NCBI RefSeq assembly: GCF_030733205.1
Contig: NZ_JASHJL010000052.1
Span: 1-35,346, forward strand
From: Mameliella sp. MMSF_3455
GTDB taxonomy: Bacteria; Pseudomonadota; Alphaproteobacteria; Rhodobacterales; Rhodobacteraceae
DNA length: 35,346 bases
Reading direction: 5' to 3'
Part shown: positions 29,898 to 35,292 of the stretch, in pieces
Layout: every line of letters begins with the position of its first letter
How positions within the stretch are numbered: position 1 is the stretch's first letter
Translations under genes and position numbers: made by a program
Notes under the pieces: generated by a model
What the model was told of the DNA's origin: nothing
The model's input: the letters and a program-made list of their open reading frames with translations, nothing else
Database searches by the model: none

Positions 29898-31472
29898 TCA
29901 CACCTTTTCGCTGACCGCGCTCCAGTCGAGGCCAAACCGGGCCAGGTACTTGCGTAGCCTGTCGGCATCATTGGTCGAGGCGCGTTTCGCGCGAGAGGCG
30001 GCGAACAGTGTGCGTCCTGCCGCGCTGAGGCTGGCAGAGCTTTGGCAGCAGCGGATCACCTCGGCCAGTTGAACGAGGTCGAACCGGTCGATTTCGGCAG
30101 CCGCCTCGCCCAAGACCGTGCGGACAAGTCGTGCATCATCATCCCGCTCGGCGCTGTGCCAGTCGGCCTGCAGGGTCGCGATTTCCTCCTCGACCATCGC
30201 CAGGGTAATCCGCCCGCGCGGGGCCAGCACGCACAGACGCCGGATCGACCCGCCGAAGTCACGGAAGTTGCCGGGCCAAGGCGTGCCCGGATCCGAGGCA
30301 AACCGCAGGTAGCGGTCCCGCGCATCGGTGTTGAAGCCCACCCTGTTGCCCAGGTCCTTTTCCGCCCGGTCCAGTTCGAACCGCAGGTTGGGTTCAATGT
30401 CCTCGCGCCGCTCCCGCAAGGCGGGCAGCCGGAAACTCCACATGTTCAGGCGCGCCAGCAGGTCCGGCCGGAACAGCCCCTGCGACGTCAGCGCGCGAAG
30501 GTCGCGATTGGCGCCCGCGATGATCTGGAACCGGCTTGTGACCTCATGATCGGACCCCAACGGGTAAAATCGCCCGCTTTCGATGGCGTGCAACAGGATG
30601 CTCTGTTCGTTCAGGCCCAGTTCGTCGACCTCGTCGAGAAACAGGACCCCGCCGTCCGCCTCGCGCAAAAGGCCACTGCGTTCGGTCCCCGCCTGCCCGG
30701 TAAAACTGCGTCTCTGGCCGAAAAGCGTGGCGCGCGCATCTTGCCCGCGCAGCGTGGCACAGTTGACATGCACCAGCCGACCTTTCAGTCGGCGCCTGTC
30801 CAGTTTCAGCGAATGGATGCGCTCGGCCAGGTGAGTCTTGCCGGTGCCGGTTTCGCCCAAGAGAAGGATCGGTTCGTTGGAATTGCTGGCCACCAGTTCG
30901 ATCCGGTCGATCAGCGCGTTGTAGGCGGGGTTCAAGGTCTCGATCCCGCCCTTCAACTGATCGCTGTATTCGCGCGACAGCTGGTCGAACCGCTGTTGCA
31001 GCGCGTTGTAGCGGCTGAGGTCGAGGTCGATGAGGTCGAACTTGGCCTTGTCCTCCTCCGGCCCGGGCGGGCCGGTCTGGATCAGCCTCGCGGGGATGTG
31101 GCGGCTTTCGGTCAGCAGGAACCAACAGATCTGCGCCACATGCGTGCCGGTGGTCAGGTGGACGTGATAGCGTTCACGGTCCTCGTCAAAGCCGTAGCCG
31201 CGGGCAAAGTCGAATAGCTTGCCGTAGACCTCCTGGAAATCCCAGGGGTCGGAGAGGTCGAGGTTGCGCAGCATGACCTCTGTCTGCGGATTGGTCCCCT
31301 GCACCTCGGTCCGGACGATCTCGGCCAGGGTTTTGAACCGCATGTCATAGAGGATTTCGAGCCGGTCCACGGGAAATCCATCATGCGTGACCAGGCTCAC
31401 CGTCGGCTTCCAGCGCCGCCTGCGCCCCATGTCGAGCTGCGTTCCGAGGAATCCGAGGACGACGTTGCGCAA
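29898..31472 (-). CDS. rtcR: RtcR, sigma-54-dependent activator of the RNA-repair operon
   Basis: A 524-residue activator. The N-terminal CARF-type ligand domain (about 1-180) includes DPWDFQEVYGKLFDFARGYG, HLTTGTHVAQICWFLLTES and LIDLDLSRYN, as in E. coli RtcR. The AAA+ domain has Walker A GETGTGKT (206-213) and Walker B VLFLDEVDEL. The C-terminal segment SLSAAGRTLFAASRAKRAST is the DNA-binding region. The sigma-54-contact GAFTGA loop reads RSFTGQ (255-260), a clear deviation. I chose TTG 31472 because LRNVVLGFLGT aligns with the E. coli start MRKTVAFGFVGT; a GTG at 31526 has no ribosome site. It is divergent from ro60. In related systems, damaged-tRNA fragments are the signal. Confidence 0.93.
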   Translation of the reverse strand: MRNVVLGFLGTQLDMGRRRRWKPTVSLVTHDGFPVDRLEILYDMRFKTLAEIVRTEVQGTNPQTEVMLRNLDLSDPWDFQEVYGKLFDFARGYGFDEDRERYHVHLTTGTHVAQICWFLLTESRHIPARLIQTGPPGPEEDKAKFDLIDLDLSRYNALQQRFDQLSREYSDQLKGGIETLNPAYNALIDRIELVASNSNEPILLLGETGTGKTHLAERIHSLKLDRRRLKGRLVHVNCATLRGQDARATLFGQRRSFTGQAGTERSGLLREADGGVLFLDEVDELGLNEQSILLHAIESGRFYPLGSDHEVTSRFQIIAGANRDLRALTSQGLFRPDLLARLNMWSFRLPALRERREDIEPNLRFELDRAEKDLGNRVGFNTDARDRYLRFASDPGTPWPGNFRDFGGSIRRLCVLAPRGRITLAMVEEEIATLQADWHSAERDDDARLVRTVLGEAAAEIDRFDLVQLAEVIRCCQSSASLSAAGRTLFAASRAKRASTNDADRLRKYLARFGLDWSAVSEKV

Positions 31473-31486
31473 GTGCCTATCCAACC

Positions 31487-31512
31487 CGATAAATCTATAT
31501 CCGCTGATATCG
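31487..31512. promoter_or_regulatory. candidate RtcR upstream activating site
   Basis: CGATA (31487-31491) and TATCG (31508-31512) are inverse repeats 16 bases apart, 80 to 105 bases before the -24 element of ro60 and just upstream of the chosen rtcR start. Bacterial enhancer-binding proteins bind such dyads about 100 bases upstream. The short arms make this tentative. Confidence 0.25.
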
Positions 31513-31591
31513 TACTGGCTTGACACGATTTCGGCAATGTCGGGGATAAGTGTTTCGATTCAGTGTCCTGACTGGATTTCCGATTTCTCTC

Positions 31592-31647: not shown

Positions 31648-33204
31648 ATGGCAAACAAATCCGTGTTTGCATCGATGAAGGGCCGGTTGCTGCCGAAAGC
31701 GACCGCAAGGAATGTCGAAGGCGCACCGGCCTACGCCTACTCCGATGCACATGCCCTGGCGCAATTGGCGGCCACAGGCACATTCGGTGGCCTGTTCTAC
31801 CAGTCCGCCCAGGACGAACTGATCCGCGTGGTCGAGCTGGCCGAAAAGGTGGAACCGGAGTTCCTTGCCCGGACGGCGATCTACGCTCGCCAGTCGGGCT
31901 ACATGAAGGACATGCCGGCGGTGCTCTTGGCGGTGCTGGCGCGGCGCGATCCGGCGCTCTTCCGGGCGGTCTTTGGCCGCGTGGTGGATCACGGCAAGAT
32001 GCTGCGGACCTTCGTGCAGATCGTGCGGTCGGGCCAGACCGGGCGCAAGTCGCTGGGCTCGGCGCCCAAGGCAATGGTGCAGCACTGGCTGAACACGGCC
32101 TCGGACCGGGCCATCCTGAATGCCAACATCGGCAACGATCCGTCGCTGAAGGACGTGATCAGGATGGTTCACCCGAAGCCGGAGAGGGCAGAGCGCGAGG
32201 CGCTGTTCGCCTGGATCGTCGGGCGGCCCTGCGACGTGTCGAAACTGCCGGAGGCGGTGCAGGACTGGATGACCTTCAACGAAGGGGCGGAGGGGACATT
32301 GCCCGACGTGCCGTTCCAGATGCTGACGCAGCTGCCGCTGACCGCGGACCACTGGGCGCAGATCGCGCAAAAGGGTTCGTGGCAGATGGTGCGCCAGAAC
32401 TTGAACACCTTCCTGCGCAAGGGCGTCTTTGCCGATGCGCAGATGGTCGAACAGGTCGCGGCAAAGCTGCGTGACCCCAAGGCGGTCTCGAAGGCGCGGG
32501 CCTTTCCGTACCAGATGATGGTCGCGGCAAGGCACGCAAGCGACGAGATGCCCCGCGAGATCGTGGATGCGCTGCATGGTGCGATGGAGTTGGCGGTGCG
32601 CTATGTGCCGAAGGTCTCTGGCGAGGTCGTGGTCTGTCCGGACGTCTCGGCGTCTATGACGGGGCCGGTGACCGGCTACCGCAAGGGCGCAAGCTCTGCC
32701 GTGCGTCACGTGGACGTGGCCGCATTGGTTGCGGCGTCGTTCATGCGGGTGAACCGCAAGTGCCAGGTTCTGCCGTTCGAGGTGAAGGTGCGCAATGCAC
32801 GCCTGAACCCGCGCGACACGATCCTGACCAACGCGGAACGCCTGTCGGCCTTGGCCGGGGGCGGGACCAACTGTTCGGCACCGCTGCGGCAGCTCAACGA
32901 GCGCCGTCGCGCACCGGACCTGGTGGTCTTCGTGTCCGACAACCAGTCCTGGGTGGATGCCCGGGGCGGGCGCCAGTCGACGGCGATGATGCACGAATGG
33001 GCGGCTCTGAAACGGCGCAACCCGGGGGCCAGGCTGGTCTGCATCGACATCGCGCCCTACGGCACGACGCATGCGCAGACTCGTGAGGATGTGCTGAACA
33101 TCGGCGGGTTCTCGGACGCGGTCTTTGACCGGATCGCGGATTTCGCGAAGGGCCGGACAGGGTCCGAACACTGGGTGCAGGAGATCGAGAAGATCGAGCT
33201 CTGA
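31648..33204 (+). CDS. rsr: Ro60 (TROVE plus vWA domain) RNA-binding protein
   Basis: A 518-residue bacterial Ro60/Rsr protein. The ring of TROVE helical repeats covers about residues 15-325 (FLARTAIYARQSGYMKDMPA, FPYQMMVAARHA). The C-terminal vWA domain has a complete metal site: D332-x-S334-x-S336 (DVSAS), T407 in GGGTNCSAPL and D431 in VFVSDNQSW. Ro60 binds Y RNAs and the ends of misfolded RNAs and helps RNA turnover with exoribonucleases. ATG 31648 has GAAGGA seven bases upstream; earlier in-frame codons overlap the promoter. A 660-base structured non-coding interval follows, then rtcB, so an RtcR-controlled operon is likely. Confidence 0.94.
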   Translation: MANKSVFASMKGRLLPKATARNVEGAPAYAYSDAHALAQLAATGTFGGLFYQSAQDELIRVVELAEKVEPEFLARTAIYARQSGYMKDMPAVLLAVLARRDPALFRAVFGRVVDHGKMLRTFVQIVRSGQTGRKSLGSAPKAMVQHWLNTASDRAILNANIGNDPSLKDVIRMVHPKPERAEREALFAWIVGRPCDVSKLPEAVQDWMTFNEGAEGTLPDVPFQMLTQLPLTADHWAQIAQKGSWQMVRQNLNTFLRKGVFADAQMVEQVAAKLRDPKAVSKARAFPYQMMVAARHASDEMPREIVDALHGAMELAVRYVPKVSGEVVVCPDVSASMTGPVTGYRKGASSAVRHVDVAALVAASFMRVNRKCQVLPFEVKVRNARLNPRDTILTNAERLSALAGGGTNCSAPLRQLNERRRAPDLVVFVSDNQSWVDARGGRQSTAMMHEWAALKRRNPGARLVCIDIAPYGTTHAQTREDVLNIGGFSDAVFDRIADFAKGRTGSEHWVQEIEKIEL

Positions 33205-33218
33205 GCCCTGACACCAAA

Positions 33219-33294
33219 GGGTCAGGCGGAATGCCGACGGGACTACATTTTCAGGACATGTACCTGTCTCGTCATTTACTTGTCCGCCTGGCCC
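33219..33294 (+). ncRNA. Y-RNA-like unit 1 (minimal, no tRNA module)
   Basis: The outer helix is 33219-33230 paired with 33283-33294 (12 bp, one U-G). The 5' internal strand is AUGCC (33231-33235). The inner helix is GACGGGAC (33236-33243) paired with GUCUCGUC (33266-33273), with a G-U at the fifth pair. The 3' internal strand is AUUUACUUG (33274-33282). The end loop contains UACAU/AUGUA (33244-33248 with 33258-33262). It starts 15 bases after the ro60 stop. The architecture repeats in units 2-4. The Ro60 gene next door and the CUUG in the 3' strand, which recalls vertebrate Y RNAs, support the Y-RNA reading. An upstream CCTGAC (33207-33212) could pair with GTCAGG (33221-33226) and block the outer helix. 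Confidence 0.72.
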
Positions 33295-33323: not shown

Positions 33324-33518
33324 TGTCCCGGCGAATGCCGGCGGAACTACAGCGCTGTTAACGCCCAGGTTGCGGGTTCGAATCCCGTCGCGGCCGCCAC
33401 AGACCATCCACAGGCAAGGTATTCCCGTCTGTCGGATCGGTTCCCCAACGGGGATTATGGCCGCGTAGCTCAATCGGAAGAGCAGGTCATGTTTCGCCAC
33501 CCCTTTGTCGCCGGGACA
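33324..33518 (+). ncRNA. Y-RNA-like unit 2 with permuted tRNA module
   Basis: The outer helix is UGUCCCGGCGA (33324-33334) perfectly paired with 33508-33518 (11 bp) although the strands are 173 bases apart. The 5' internal strand is AUGCC (33335-33339). The inner helix is GGCGGAAC (33340-33347) paired with GUUUCGCC (33491-33498), again with G-U at pair five. The 3' internal strand is ACCCCUUUG (33499-33507). Everything between the inner strands is a tRNA-like module in circularly permuted order, annotated separately. Handle plus tRNA-like module is the known plan of bacterial YrlA-type Y RNAs, where the handle binds Ro60 and the module binds an effector such as PNPase. Confidence 0.78.
33350..33484 (+). 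ncRNA. complete circularly permuted tRNA, anticodon GUU (Asn-like)
   Basis: In tRNA numbering: 27-43 is 33350-33366 (3-bp anticodon stem GCG/CGC, loop CUGUUAA with U33, anticodon GUU at 33357-33359, A37, A38). The variable loop AGGUU is 33367-33371. The T arm is GCGGG-UUCGAAU-CCCGU (33372-33388). The 3' acceptor strand CGCGGCC is 33389-33395, G73 is 33396 and CCA is 33397-33399. After a 59-base linker comes the 5' acceptor strand GGCCGCG (33459-33465), pairing 7 of 7, then U8 A9, and the D arm GCUC-AAUCGGAA-GAGC (33468-33483) with A14, G18, G19, A21, and A26 at 33484. Only pairs 27-43 and 28-42 are mismatched. The linker holds ACAGAC/GUCUGU and UCCCC/GGGGA hairpins. tRNA function is not shown. 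Confidence 0.75.
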
Positions 33519-33523
33519 CAATG

Positions 33524-33599
33524 CCAGGGACCAACCCAGCTTGGCAGAGTGCCCCACCCGGAGTGCGAAAGCCGAAGGTTCAACTCCTTCATCCTTGGG
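33524..33599 (+). ncRNA. degenerate conventional-order tRNA-like element
   Basis: CCAGGGA (33524-33530) pairs 7 of 7 (one G-U) with UCCUUGG (33592-33598). The D-like loop AGCUUGGCA (33538-33546) keeps A14, G18, G19 and A21, with 3 of 4 stem pairs. The T arm is GAAGG-UUCAACU-CCUUC (33574-33590), a canonical loop. The total of 76 bases to G73 equals a normal tRNA. However, the anticodon arm does not form (no U33), one extra base lies between T and acceptor stems, and the end reads GCAA rather than NCCA. It lies between Y units 2 and 3, outside any handle. It is probably a decayed or mimic tRNA rather than a working one. Confidence 0.45.
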
Positions 33600-33609
33600 C
33601 AACACGATC

Positions 33610-33675
33610 GGGAGGAATGCCTGCGGGGTTACTTGTCTTTCAACAACGCCAAACCTCGCAACATCTTGTCCTCCC
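33610..33675 (+). ncRNA. Y-RNA-like unit 3 (minimal, no tRNA module)
   Basis: The outer helix is GGGAGGA (33610-33616) paired with UCCUCCC (33669-33675). The 5' internal strand is AUGCC (33617-33621). The inner helix is UGCGGGGUU (33622-33630) paired with AACCUCGCA (33652-33660), with G-U at pair five. The 3' internal strand is ACAUCUUG (33661-33668). A 21-base open loop replaces the tRNA module. Helix sequences differ from unit 1 by compensating changes while the internal-loop bases are kept, which indicates selection on structure. Confidence 0.7.
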
Positions 33676-33693
33676 ACCCGAATACGAAAGGAC

Positions 33694-33845
33694 GCCCCCG
33701 GCGAATGCCGAAGGAACTACATGCCTCCAACCAAACCGGGTCACCGGGCGGTTCGACTCCGCCTTTGGCAATCGCCCAGACGGCAAACGCGCGTCCTGCG
33801 CGGGGCGGGTCCCGGAGATGTTTCTTCTCTCTTGTCGCCGGGGGC
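33694..33845 (+). ncRNA. Y-RNA-like unit 4 with a decayed permuted tRNA module
   Basis: The outer helix is GCCCCCGGCGA (33694-33704) perfectly paired with 33835-33845 (11 bp). The 5' internal strand is AUGCC (33705-33709). The inner helix is GAAGGAAC (33710-33717) paired with GUUUCUUC (33820-33827), with G-U at pair five. The 3' internal strand is UCUCUUG (33828-33834). Inside are CCGGG/CCCGG (33736-33740 with 33811-33815), a canonical T arm GGCGG-UUCGACU-CCGCC (33747-33763), an acceptor-like UUUG/CAAA (33764-33767 with 33784-33787), and a hairpin at 33788-33802 in the D-arm position that lacks the G18-G19 loop. The order is again permuted. It ends 5 bases before the rtcB ribosome-binding sequence. 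Confidence 0.7.
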
Positions 33846-33864: not shown

Positions 33865-35292
33865 ATGACGATATCGGATAACGCTGCATTTGATCCGGTC
33901 ACCGGGCACCACCTGCAGGACTGGGGCCATCGCCCTGGCAAGCATTTCCCCGTGCTGCTGGAAAAAGCCAACGCGATGCGGGCCGAGGGCTATGGACTTG
34001 TGCGCATCCGGCAGGAACTGGACGGCATGGCCCCGCCAGAGCCGGACACGCTGGCGCTGCGCGCACCCGGGGATCTTGCCTTTTCCGAGAACATCGAGAT
34101 TTCGCATCCCGATGAACAGGAGAACGTCGCCAAGGTGCGCGCCACCATGCGCGAACTGATGCGCACGCCCACGATCGAGGCCGGGGCGATCATGCCTGAC
34201 GCCTGTCCGGCAGGGCCCGAGGGCACGATCCCGGTGGGGGGCGTGGCCGCCGCCAGCAACGCGATTCACCCGGGGATGCATTCGGCCGACATCTGTTGTT
34301 CGGTCATGATCTCGGACATGGGCATGGCCGATCCCAAGGCGGTGCTGGATGCCGCGCAGTCGGTCACGCATTTCGGCCCCGGCGGGCGCGCCCAAGGCAA
34401 GCGTTATACCCTGCCGGTCGATCTGCTGGACGAGATGCGCGACAATTCCTTTCTCTGTACGCAAAAGATCATGCACATGGCGCAGGCGCACCTGGGGACG
34501 CAGGGGGACGGCAATCATTTCCTGTTCGTCGGACGCTCGCGCAAGACCGGGCGCACGGCGATGGTGACGCATCACGGGTCTCGCGGGCCGGGGGCGGTGC
34601 TCTACAAGGAGGGGATGATCGTGGCGGAACGCTATCGCCGGGAACTGTCGCCCGAGACACTGAAACAGAATGCCTGGATCCCGGCGGACAGCGACGATGG
34701 GCAGGATTACTGGGACGCGCTGCAGATCATTCGCCAGTGGACCAAAACCAACCACGCGATGATCCACGACGCGACGGCAGCGGCTGCCGGCGCCGAGGTG
34801 GGTGACCGTTTCTGGAACGAGCACAACTTCGTCTTCAAGCGGGGCGATCTTTACTTTCACGGCAAGGGGGCGACCCCGGCCTGGAAGGACTATGCCGATG
34901 ACGCCAGCGGGCTGACCCTGATTCCGCTCAACATGGCGCAGCCGGTTCTGGTGACGCGCGGGCTGGATGCGGCCAGCGGGCTGGGGTTCAGCCCGCATGG
35001 GGCCGGGCGCAATTTCTCGCGCTCGGAGCATCGCCGCCGCATGGGATCGGTCACGCCCGACCAGATGCTGAAGGCCGAGACCGAGGGTCTGGACATCCGG
35101 TTTCACGCCGGGGCGGTGGATGCGTCCGAACTGCCGTCCAGCTACAAGGATGCCGACAGCGTCGTGGCGCAGATCAAGTCCTACGGACTGGCCGAGATCG
35201 AGGATTACATCGATCCTTACGGCTGCATCATGGCGGGTGACGTGCCGCCGTTCTGGGCCAAGAAAAGGAAAGCTGCCCGGCGCGGTGCCTGA
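33865..35292 (+). CDS. rtcB: RtcB-family RNA ligase, divergent clade
   Basis: A 475-residue RtcB protein that should join 2',3'-cyclic-phosphate (3'-phosphate) and 5'-OH RNA ends with GTP and Mn2+. Metal and guanylate residues are visible: PDACPAGPEGTIPVGGV, D142 and C145 (or C144) in HSADICCSV where canonical RtcB has DIGCGM, N217-H218 in GDGNHF, H237 in HHGSRG, H332 in FHGKGATP, and the guanylylated histidine candidate H378 in SPHGAGRNFSR. It is about 65 residues longer than E. coli RtcB, with an N-terminal extension. ATG 33865 follows ACGGAGA, right after Y unit 4. No rtcA is seen before the window ends; 35293-35346 holds no recognisable gene. Confidence 0.92.
   Translation: MTISDNAAFDPVTGHHLQDWGHRPGKHFPVLLEKANAMRAEGYGLVRIRQELDGMAPPEPDTLALRAPGDLAFSENIEISHPDEQENVAKVRATMRELMRTPTIEAGAIMPDACPAGPEGTIPVGGVAAASNAIHPGMHSADICCSVMISDMGMADPKAVLDAAQSVTHFGPGGRAQGKRYTLPVDLLDEMRDNSFLCTQKIMHMAQAHLGTQGDGNHFLFVGRSRKTGRTAMVTHHGSRGPGAVLYKEGMIVAERYRRELSPETLKQNAWIPADSDDGQDYWDALQIIRQWTKTNHAMIHDATAAAAGAEVGDRFWNEHNFVFKRGDLYFHGKGATPAWKDYADDASGLTLIPLNMAQPVLVTRGLDAASGLGFSPHGAGRNFSRSEHRRRMGSVTPDQMLKAETEGLDIRFHAGAVDASELPSSYKDADSVVAQIKSYGLAEIEDYIDPYGCIMAGDVPPFWAKKRKAARRGA

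Follow-up and report, generated by a model that had tools for sequence, protein, structure and literature searches.

The closest described relative of the RNA reported here is YrlA (Rfam RF02553; PDB 6CU1), with which it shares the Y stem, the neighbouring Ro60 gene and the order T arm, acceptor hairpin, U8-A9, D arm. The crystal structure 6CU1, of a bacterial Y RNA, can be superposed on tRNA if circular permutation is allowed for, and permuted tRNA mimicry by a Y RNA is already published (PMC11472068). D, T and acceptor arms, binding to PNPase, and modification by DusA and TruB are described for YrlA in the available part of PMC8394870. In Salmonella, RtcR is activated by tRNA 5' fragments with a cyclic phosphate, and the nuclease does not cut YrlA itself; according to a suggestion of the authors, the tRNA-like domain of YrlA might act as a competitive inhibitor of the anticodon nuclease (available part of PMC7790460). 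The permuted tRNA genes of Cyanidioschyzon, green algae and Thermofilum pendens likewise place the 3' part before the 5' part, and their acceptor loop contains an intervening segment; two such genes of T. pendens encode CCA, and in one gene of this species the intervening segment is a single base (PMC3978253). The tRNA-like domain of the two-piece tmRNA also comes from a permuted precursor, for which processing by RNase P and tRNase Z is probable (PMC3985003). In the trn operon of Anabaena (regulator TrcR), extra tRNAs and rtcB are under one common stress repressor (PMC10272220).

The window (the whole stretch of DNA that was analysed, 35,346 nucleotides) is part of a 5.7 Mb genome and carries, in this order, rtcR, rsr (Ro60), a stretch with the Y RNAs and a gene of the rtcB family. 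The RNA-repair activator gene rtcR (29898..31526, minus strand) reached 691.5 bits with NF038308 (cut-off 650) and is divergent from rsr; the other features of the window named below lie on the plus strand. The gene rsr, coding for the Ro60/TROVE-vWA protein (PF25045 and PF05731 above cut-off), occupies 31648..33204; the ATG at 31648 was chosen as the start in an open frame that begins at 31387. Its protein is 53.6-57.6% identical to Rhizobium plasmid proteins (tblastn, among 60 matches listed). No sigma-54 promoter was found upstream of rsr with the one pattern tried. The gene is adjoined by the Y RNA stretch, in which a weak YrlB-like unit (33219..33294; RF02565, 25.4 bits, E 0.011, gathering score 97 not reached) precedes the YrlA-type unit (33325..33517). 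The latter aligned with the full RF02553 model (positions 1-114, two long inserts) at 33328-33517 with 67.6 bits (E 3e-15), against a gathering score of 69. Further downstream are a second weak YrlB-like unit (33605..33680; RF02565, 27.2 bits, E 0.0035, again below the gathering score of 97), a third Y-like unit with a T-arm-like hairpin (33698..33844; RF02553, 21.8 bits, E 0.05), and the gene for an rtcB-family RNA ligase (33865..35292; PF01139, 117.1 bits). Rfam at gathering thresholds reported nothing in the window, and all Rfam matches given here for the window were obtained at relaxed thresholds, which also yielded a chance-level Ocean-VII match in the Y RNA stretch. With tmRNA models, the YrlA unit gave only a partial beta_tmRNA match of 15.8 bits (cut-off 84). 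In the third unit no tRNA D arm was seen, and the permuted-tRNA search described below matched only a T-arm fragment (E 0.13). Counterparts of this third unit recur in relatives (e.g., L048 1842, L052 1647, L087 807); the type is marked by the T-arm-like hairpin and a segment resembling GCGCCCAGACGGCAAACGC, and no D arm was seen in it.

The YrlA-type unit is closed by a lower Y stem of 10 bp (33325-33334/33508-33517) and an upper Y stem of 8 bp (33340-33347/33491-33498). Inside lie all parts of a tRNA, in permuted order and with their pairing intact. The distal anticodon arm (33352..33364) comes first, with GCG at positions 29-31, the loop CTGTTAA at 32-38 (33355-33361; CUGUUAA in RNA, anticodon GTT at 33357-33359) and CGC at 39-41. 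It is followed by CC at positions 42-43 (33365..33366), the variable loop AGGTT at 44-48 (33367..33371), the T arm with the loop TTCGAAT (33372..33388, placed by the permuted-tRNA model and the letters), the acceptor 3' strand CGCGGCC at 66-72 (33389-33395), G73 (33396) and an encoded CCA (33397-33399). An intervening segment of 59 bases (33400..33458), ending in A(-2)T(-1), leads to the acceptor 5' strand GGCCGCG (33459-33465), which forms 7 of 7 pairs with the 3' strand. U8-A9 (33466-33467), the D arm (33468-33483), A26 (33484) and G27-G28 (33485..33486) complete the body; TCAT and the Y stem follow. The T and acceptor arms, G73-CCA and the A(-2)T(-1) leader end are sequence features of an RNase P substrate.

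A preliminary description of this DNA had claimed a complete permuted tRNA inside a Y RNA at 33350-33484. The parts were found where it had placed them, including the fully paired acceptor, and the claim is confirmed for a YrlA-type Y RNA; the bounds of the element shift to 33352-33486. The stem proposed there, CAGCG at 33350-33354 as positions 27-31, forms only 3 of 5 pairs and was rejected in favour of the split stem, which forms 5 of 5: 27-28 with 42-43, and GCG with CGC at 29-31/39-41. Since G27-G28 pair with C42-C43, no pair of the anticodon stem is missing, and the Y stem interrupts it between positions 28 and 29, which sets the new bounds.

ARAGORN found no tRNA in the window as it stands. 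After rotation of the element it called tRNA-Asn(gtt), both with the stem of the preliminary description and with the corrected one. A covariance model of tRNAs in permuted order, made from 23 tRNAs of the host genome only, matched 33352-33486 end to end (model positions 1-82 of 82) with 69.2 bits and an E-value of 1.7e-19 (approximate calibration); no other match in the 35 kb does better than E 0.13. The rotated sequence thus scores well as a tRNA. The assignment to Asn holds for the ARAGORN call and not as a stable label, the near relative L033 having the anticodon UCU in place of GUU. As a control, 30 loci with host tRNAs in normal order scored at most 37.6 bits with the permuted model, with the exception of one tandem tRNA-Gly pair (68.7 bits, in two overlapping loci), the juxtaposition of which mimics the permuted order. 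The window unit is no such tandem pair, because Y-stem strands flank it. Five exact-pattern matches in viral contigs contained no permuted-tRNA match at E 0.001. The unconstrained fold of the unit (-86.3 kcal/mol) keeps the Y stem and the acceptor, T and D arms, and replaces the anticodon arm by another hairpin; enforcing the full cloverleaf gives -82.4 kcal/mol, a cost of 3.9 kcal/mol.

For comparison, 59 distinct YrlA units, the window's included, were parsed from part of the matches listed by the searches. They came from Rfam model matches (172 and 323 genomes without a match being left out of the listing), an exact 5' motif, a narrower motif that ends in GCGC and is thereby biased to GCG-type arms, a genus search, and Ro60 plasmid loci; Ro60 was used to reach wider relatives in plasmids and phages. 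Because the T loop, the pairing of acceptor and D stem, and U8 were preconditions of the parsing, they are no independent evidence. The parser did not require the anticodon arm, A21, N26, pair 15-48, CCA or the leader.

The split anticodon stem of five pairs, with a loop of 7 bases and a variable region of 5, was present in 34 of the 59 units; 29 other settings of loop and variable region gave at most 4 units each. L078, counted among the 25 armless units, belongs to another Y type and was mis-parsed. The arm-bearing units show ten different stems at 29-31/39-41 and three types at 27-28/42-43: pair 29-41 is GC, AU, CG or UA, pair 30-40 is GC, CG, AU or UA, and pair 27-43 is GC or CG. At the Levitt pair 15-48, 26 of them have GC and the other 8 AU; U33 is conserved in 30 and R37 in 33 of the 34. 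Fifteen anticodons occur, most often GUU (10) and GUC (6), and 30 of 34 units carry one that is in use by the host genome. The whole 7-base loop is identical to a host tRNA loop in 13 of 34 units; when anticodons were exchanged among the loops the mean was 6.8, and 8 of 5000 shuffles reached 13. ARAGORN called a tRNA for all 34 joined sequences. As judged from sequence, covariation and relatives, the tRNA-like domain is a full permuted tRNA body, carried on the Y stem at a break between positions 28 and 29.

The arm is found in plasmids of Rhizobium, Shinella and Novosphingobium and, without CCA, in plasmids of Methylosinus and Xanthomonas sacchari; it is absent from two Salmonella-type contigs (L123, L179). 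The X. sacchari plasmid (L180:4634-5105) holds two arm-bearing YrlA units with the loops CUCCGAA and CUCUUAA (anticodons CCG and CUU) and no CCA, together with a third YrlA unit lacking the arm. Two alphaproteobacterial units (L149 and L152) have the split arm (anticodons CAU and GUU) and acceptor loops of 4 bases (ACAU and UCAU); the usual AATGC motif is not directly upstream of them.

CCA directly after N73 was found in 25 of the 34 arm-bearing units and in none of the 25 units without the arm (Fisher p 2e-9). After collapse at 90% identity (44 units) the figures are 17 of 24 and 0 of 20 (p 7e-7); the units are related by descent and both counts were made without a tree. Six more units, found with the model and missed by the parser, have no CCA. 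By the same rule L086 among them bears the arm; L047 and L135 have the three distal pairs, their D arm not being placed, and the other three have no arm. Outside the 59 units, arm and CCA occur together in two (L182, L183), the arm occurs without CCA in seven (L086, L184, L120, two in L180, L149 and L152), and CCA never occurs without the arm; neither is present in a second unit each of L184 and L180 and in L123/L179. The nine arm-bearing units of the set and the seven outside it that have no CCA make CCA dispensable for the role of the arm. The anatomy of the unit, the covariation of the stem, and the tie between CCA and anticodon arm are observed directly.

The preliminary description had regarded a lack of conservation of acceptor pairing and CCA in homologous loci as fatal to a tRNA reading. 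The locus is present in 3 of 5 genus-mates searched, and all 3 keep CCA, as do units beyond the genus, across changes of N73 and linker length; L034 keeps it even though G73 is replaced by A and the linker is down to 7 bases. A long linker was found in 3 of the 59 units only, all of the same genus (the window, L032 and L033). In the other units 3-24 bases lie between the acceptor strands, N73 and CCA included, and seven units have the minimal acceptor loop N-CCA-U (NCCAU). Where CCA is missing, the acceptor is closed by 3-19 bases, 8 or fewer in 20 of 34 units. The linker ends in AU in 16 of 25 units with CCA, compared with 3 of 34 others. RCCA pairs with bacterial RNase P, the catalysis of which is optimal with U(-1), and AU is one of its best leader ends; U(-1) is of little weight when catalysis is not limiting, and deletion of RCCA increased kcat/Km 3.8- and 7.9-fold (available part of PMC9433436). 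In view of this increase, the leader and CCA signature is suggestive only. Cutting of a closed acceptor loop by RNase P is called unknown in PMC3978253, as far as that text was available.

Ordinary tRNA genes were scanned in 45 loci including the window, over a range that starts 0.9 kb ahead of the first unit and stops 1.1 kb beyond the last. Present in 27 loci (L032, L034, L047, L048, L052, L053, L056, L057, L061, L079, L082, L086-L090, L099, L103, L125, L127, L129-L131, L135-L138), they number 42, all of them Asn, Lys, Gln or Pro; the loci are partly non-independent, and two odd calls were set aside, one of an Asp tRNA of 95 bases in L131 and one of 70 bases that overlaps the Y unit of L145. 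Judged by eye, the Asn copies of the repair loci are distinct from L005, the housekeeping tRNA-Asn in the genome of the window. The window itself has a degenerate tRNA gene of ordinary order (33524..33600; RF00005, 19.1 bits at 33525-33598, cut-off 29 not reached), located between the YrlA unit and the second YrlB-like unit (33605..33680). Its orthologues are tRNA-Pro(CGG) genes with CCA, intact in L032 and L034; no counterpart was called in the genus relative L033. A low-scoring extra tRNA-Asp-like gene (33.5 bits) was seen in L039 (G000 C90:183805-183876), and also in L044 and L045; the 3' half of the L039 gene matches that of the Y unit in the window with about 93% identity over 30 bases, and in G001 the gene comes after an extra tRNA-Glu. 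On another contig of the window's genome there is an alpha_tmRNA gene (316.7 bits), of an Rfam family that we take to be the permuted form.

The retention of the tRNA parts while the anticodon is swapped among relatives suggests a purpose-built tRNA stand-in. Our favoured reading, held tentatively and at somewhat below even probability, is that the YrlA unit is a full tRNA decoy tethered to Ro60 and perhaps opened by RNase P. By analogy with Salmonella, RtcR would sense cut tRNAs and the Y RNA would then be made, its Y stem presumably binding Ro60. The tethered stand-in would most likely offer its anticodon loop and tRNA elbow to tRNA-cutting or tRNA-binding enzymes, so that real tRNAs are spared, and the RtcB encoded next to it could re-seal the Y RNA after cleavage. 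In the CCA form, the leader signature points to a probable cut by RNase P before G1 and to trimming of the 3' side to CCA, which would leave an RNA of two pieces with a real tRNA end, as proposed for the two-piece tmRNA. This combination of decoy and repair would fit the RtcR and YrlA data from Salmonella and the Anabaena operon. Several observations count against it, namely the fold preference of 3.9 kcal/mol, the arm-bearing units without CCA, the kinetics of RNase P, the rarity of the long linker, and the uncut YrlA of Salmonella; on the last point, the Salmonella-type copy examined here shows no such arm.

Alternatively, the unit might be an ordinary YrlA, in which the domain only tethers Ro60 to PNPase and meets tRNA-modifying enzymes, arm and CCA being functionless ancestral leftovers. 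The arms, the PNPase binding and the DusA and TruB modifications described for YrlA (PMC8394870, in the part available) agree with this, as does the fact that 25 of 59 units do without the arm; Salmonella-type copies reach 42.5 bits with the permuted model and have no such arm. Leftovers would decay, yet the stem covaries over its ten types, the loop of 7 bases and U33 persist through changes of the anticodon, and CCA goes with the arm. We regard this explanation as unlikely, although it retains an appreciable chance.

A role as sensor or ligand of the repair circuit is rather improbable. A cut in the anticodon loop of the Y RNA would yield ends with a 2',3'-cyclic phosphate, and these would serve as input for RtcR or RtcB. 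The binding of 5' tRNA fragments with cyclic phosphate by RtcR (PMC7790460, in part) would provide for such a signal, and many loops are of a real tRNA type, over a third of them identical to a host loop. The YrlA of Salmonella is not cleaved, as stated in the same source, and an RNA that is itself a product of the operon is made after the signal and could thus only amplify it.

The unit could also be a working permuted tRNA gene: the Y stem would be cut off, RtcB would join 28 to 29, RNase P and 3' trimming would open the acceptor, and the product would be charged and translate. Such a gene has all its parts here, including CCA and a U(-1) leader, with an rtcB-family gene adjoining and ordinary tRNA genes in the same loci; every joined sequence was called a tRNA by ARAGORN, and the one-base intervening segment and encoded CCA of T. 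pendens (PMC3978253, in part) may be compared with the seven NCCAU loops. Against this, no conserved cut site was seen, the bases from 28 to the Y stem varying by eye in length and sequence, and in place of a bulge-helix-bulge, none of which was seen by eye, there is a three-way junction with a long Y stem. Nor was discriminator tuning found among the 25 units with CCA: N73 is that of the isotype of the anticodon in 13 of 25, with host values taken from one genome, compared with a mean of 10.4 on shuffling (794 of 5000 shuffles reach 13), which leaves a permuted tRNA gene of the accepted type, as raised in the preliminary description, unsupported in that form. The Leu(UAA) form has a variable loop of only 5 bases, the Cys(GCA) form carries A73 instead of the U73 of the host, and forms without CCA are not chargeable as encoded. 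An Ala form on a Novosphingobium plasmid (L122), with G3-U70 and A73, could be chargeable. The mismatch of N73, the Leu and Cys forms, and the variable segment between 28 and the Y stem make the set look like tRNA stand-ins and not like tuned adaptors. We consider a working gene improbable. The broader proposition that bacteria have true permuted tRNAs, in which the Y stem is a clamp at the splice side, RtcB ligates 28 to 29 and RNase P releases the acceptor, so that the repair operon would supply cut-resistant or spare tRNAs from a Y RNA precursor, is quite improbable.

A remnant of tandem tRNA genes, or chance, is highly improbable and was rejected: tandem tRNAs do give the same order of parts, as in the tRNA-Gly pair, and several weak YrlA matches are tandem tRNAs (L062, L151, L157, L159, L160), but the flanks here are Y-stem strands and not tRNA halves, the acceptor strands of other units are close together (the long-linker genus-mates excepted), seven of them with NCCAU, and the split stem is shared by far more units (34 of 59) than any other geometry tried (at most 4).

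These units bear on the question why RNA-repair operons have Ro60 and Y RNAs. Swapped loops of tRNA type, and CCA only where the arm is present, lead to testable predictions on the enzymes served (anticodon nucleases, RNase P, synthetases, RtcB). Should the YrlA unit be opened by RNase P, it would represent a second class of two-piece, tRNA-ended bacterial RNA besides tmRNA; if RtcB closes it, there would be permuted tRNA genes in bacteria. No literature joining 'permuted tRNA' and 'Y RNA' was found, and neither an anticodon arm nor an encoded CCA of YrlA was found described in the available parts of PMC7790460, PMC8394870, PMC9879122, PMC4987338 and PMC9569102. The literature comparison covers these later papers; the original YrlA papers may describe arms, so priority for the complete version with anticodon and CCA is uncertain.

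Compared with known systems, the units reported here add to the described YrlA a full anticodon arm, split by the Y stem and with anticodons that change between relatives, an encoded CCA (25 of 59 units), frequently accompanied by a leader like that of an RNase P substrate, and in the window a linker of 59 bases. Arm and CCA do go beyond the D, T and acceptor arms described for YrlA (PMC8394870, in part), as the preliminary description had supposed. In permuted tRNA genes a bulge-helix-bulge splice site holds the ends, a role taken here by a conserved Y stem. A tag reading frame is part of tmRNA, which has no anticodon arm; the YrlA unit differs from the two-piece tmRNA in having a Y stem and an anticodon. 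In Anabaena the tRNA genes concerned are ordinary and located elsewhere in the genome, whereas here a permuted tRNA lies within a Y RNA, beside ordinary tRNAs in many relatives.
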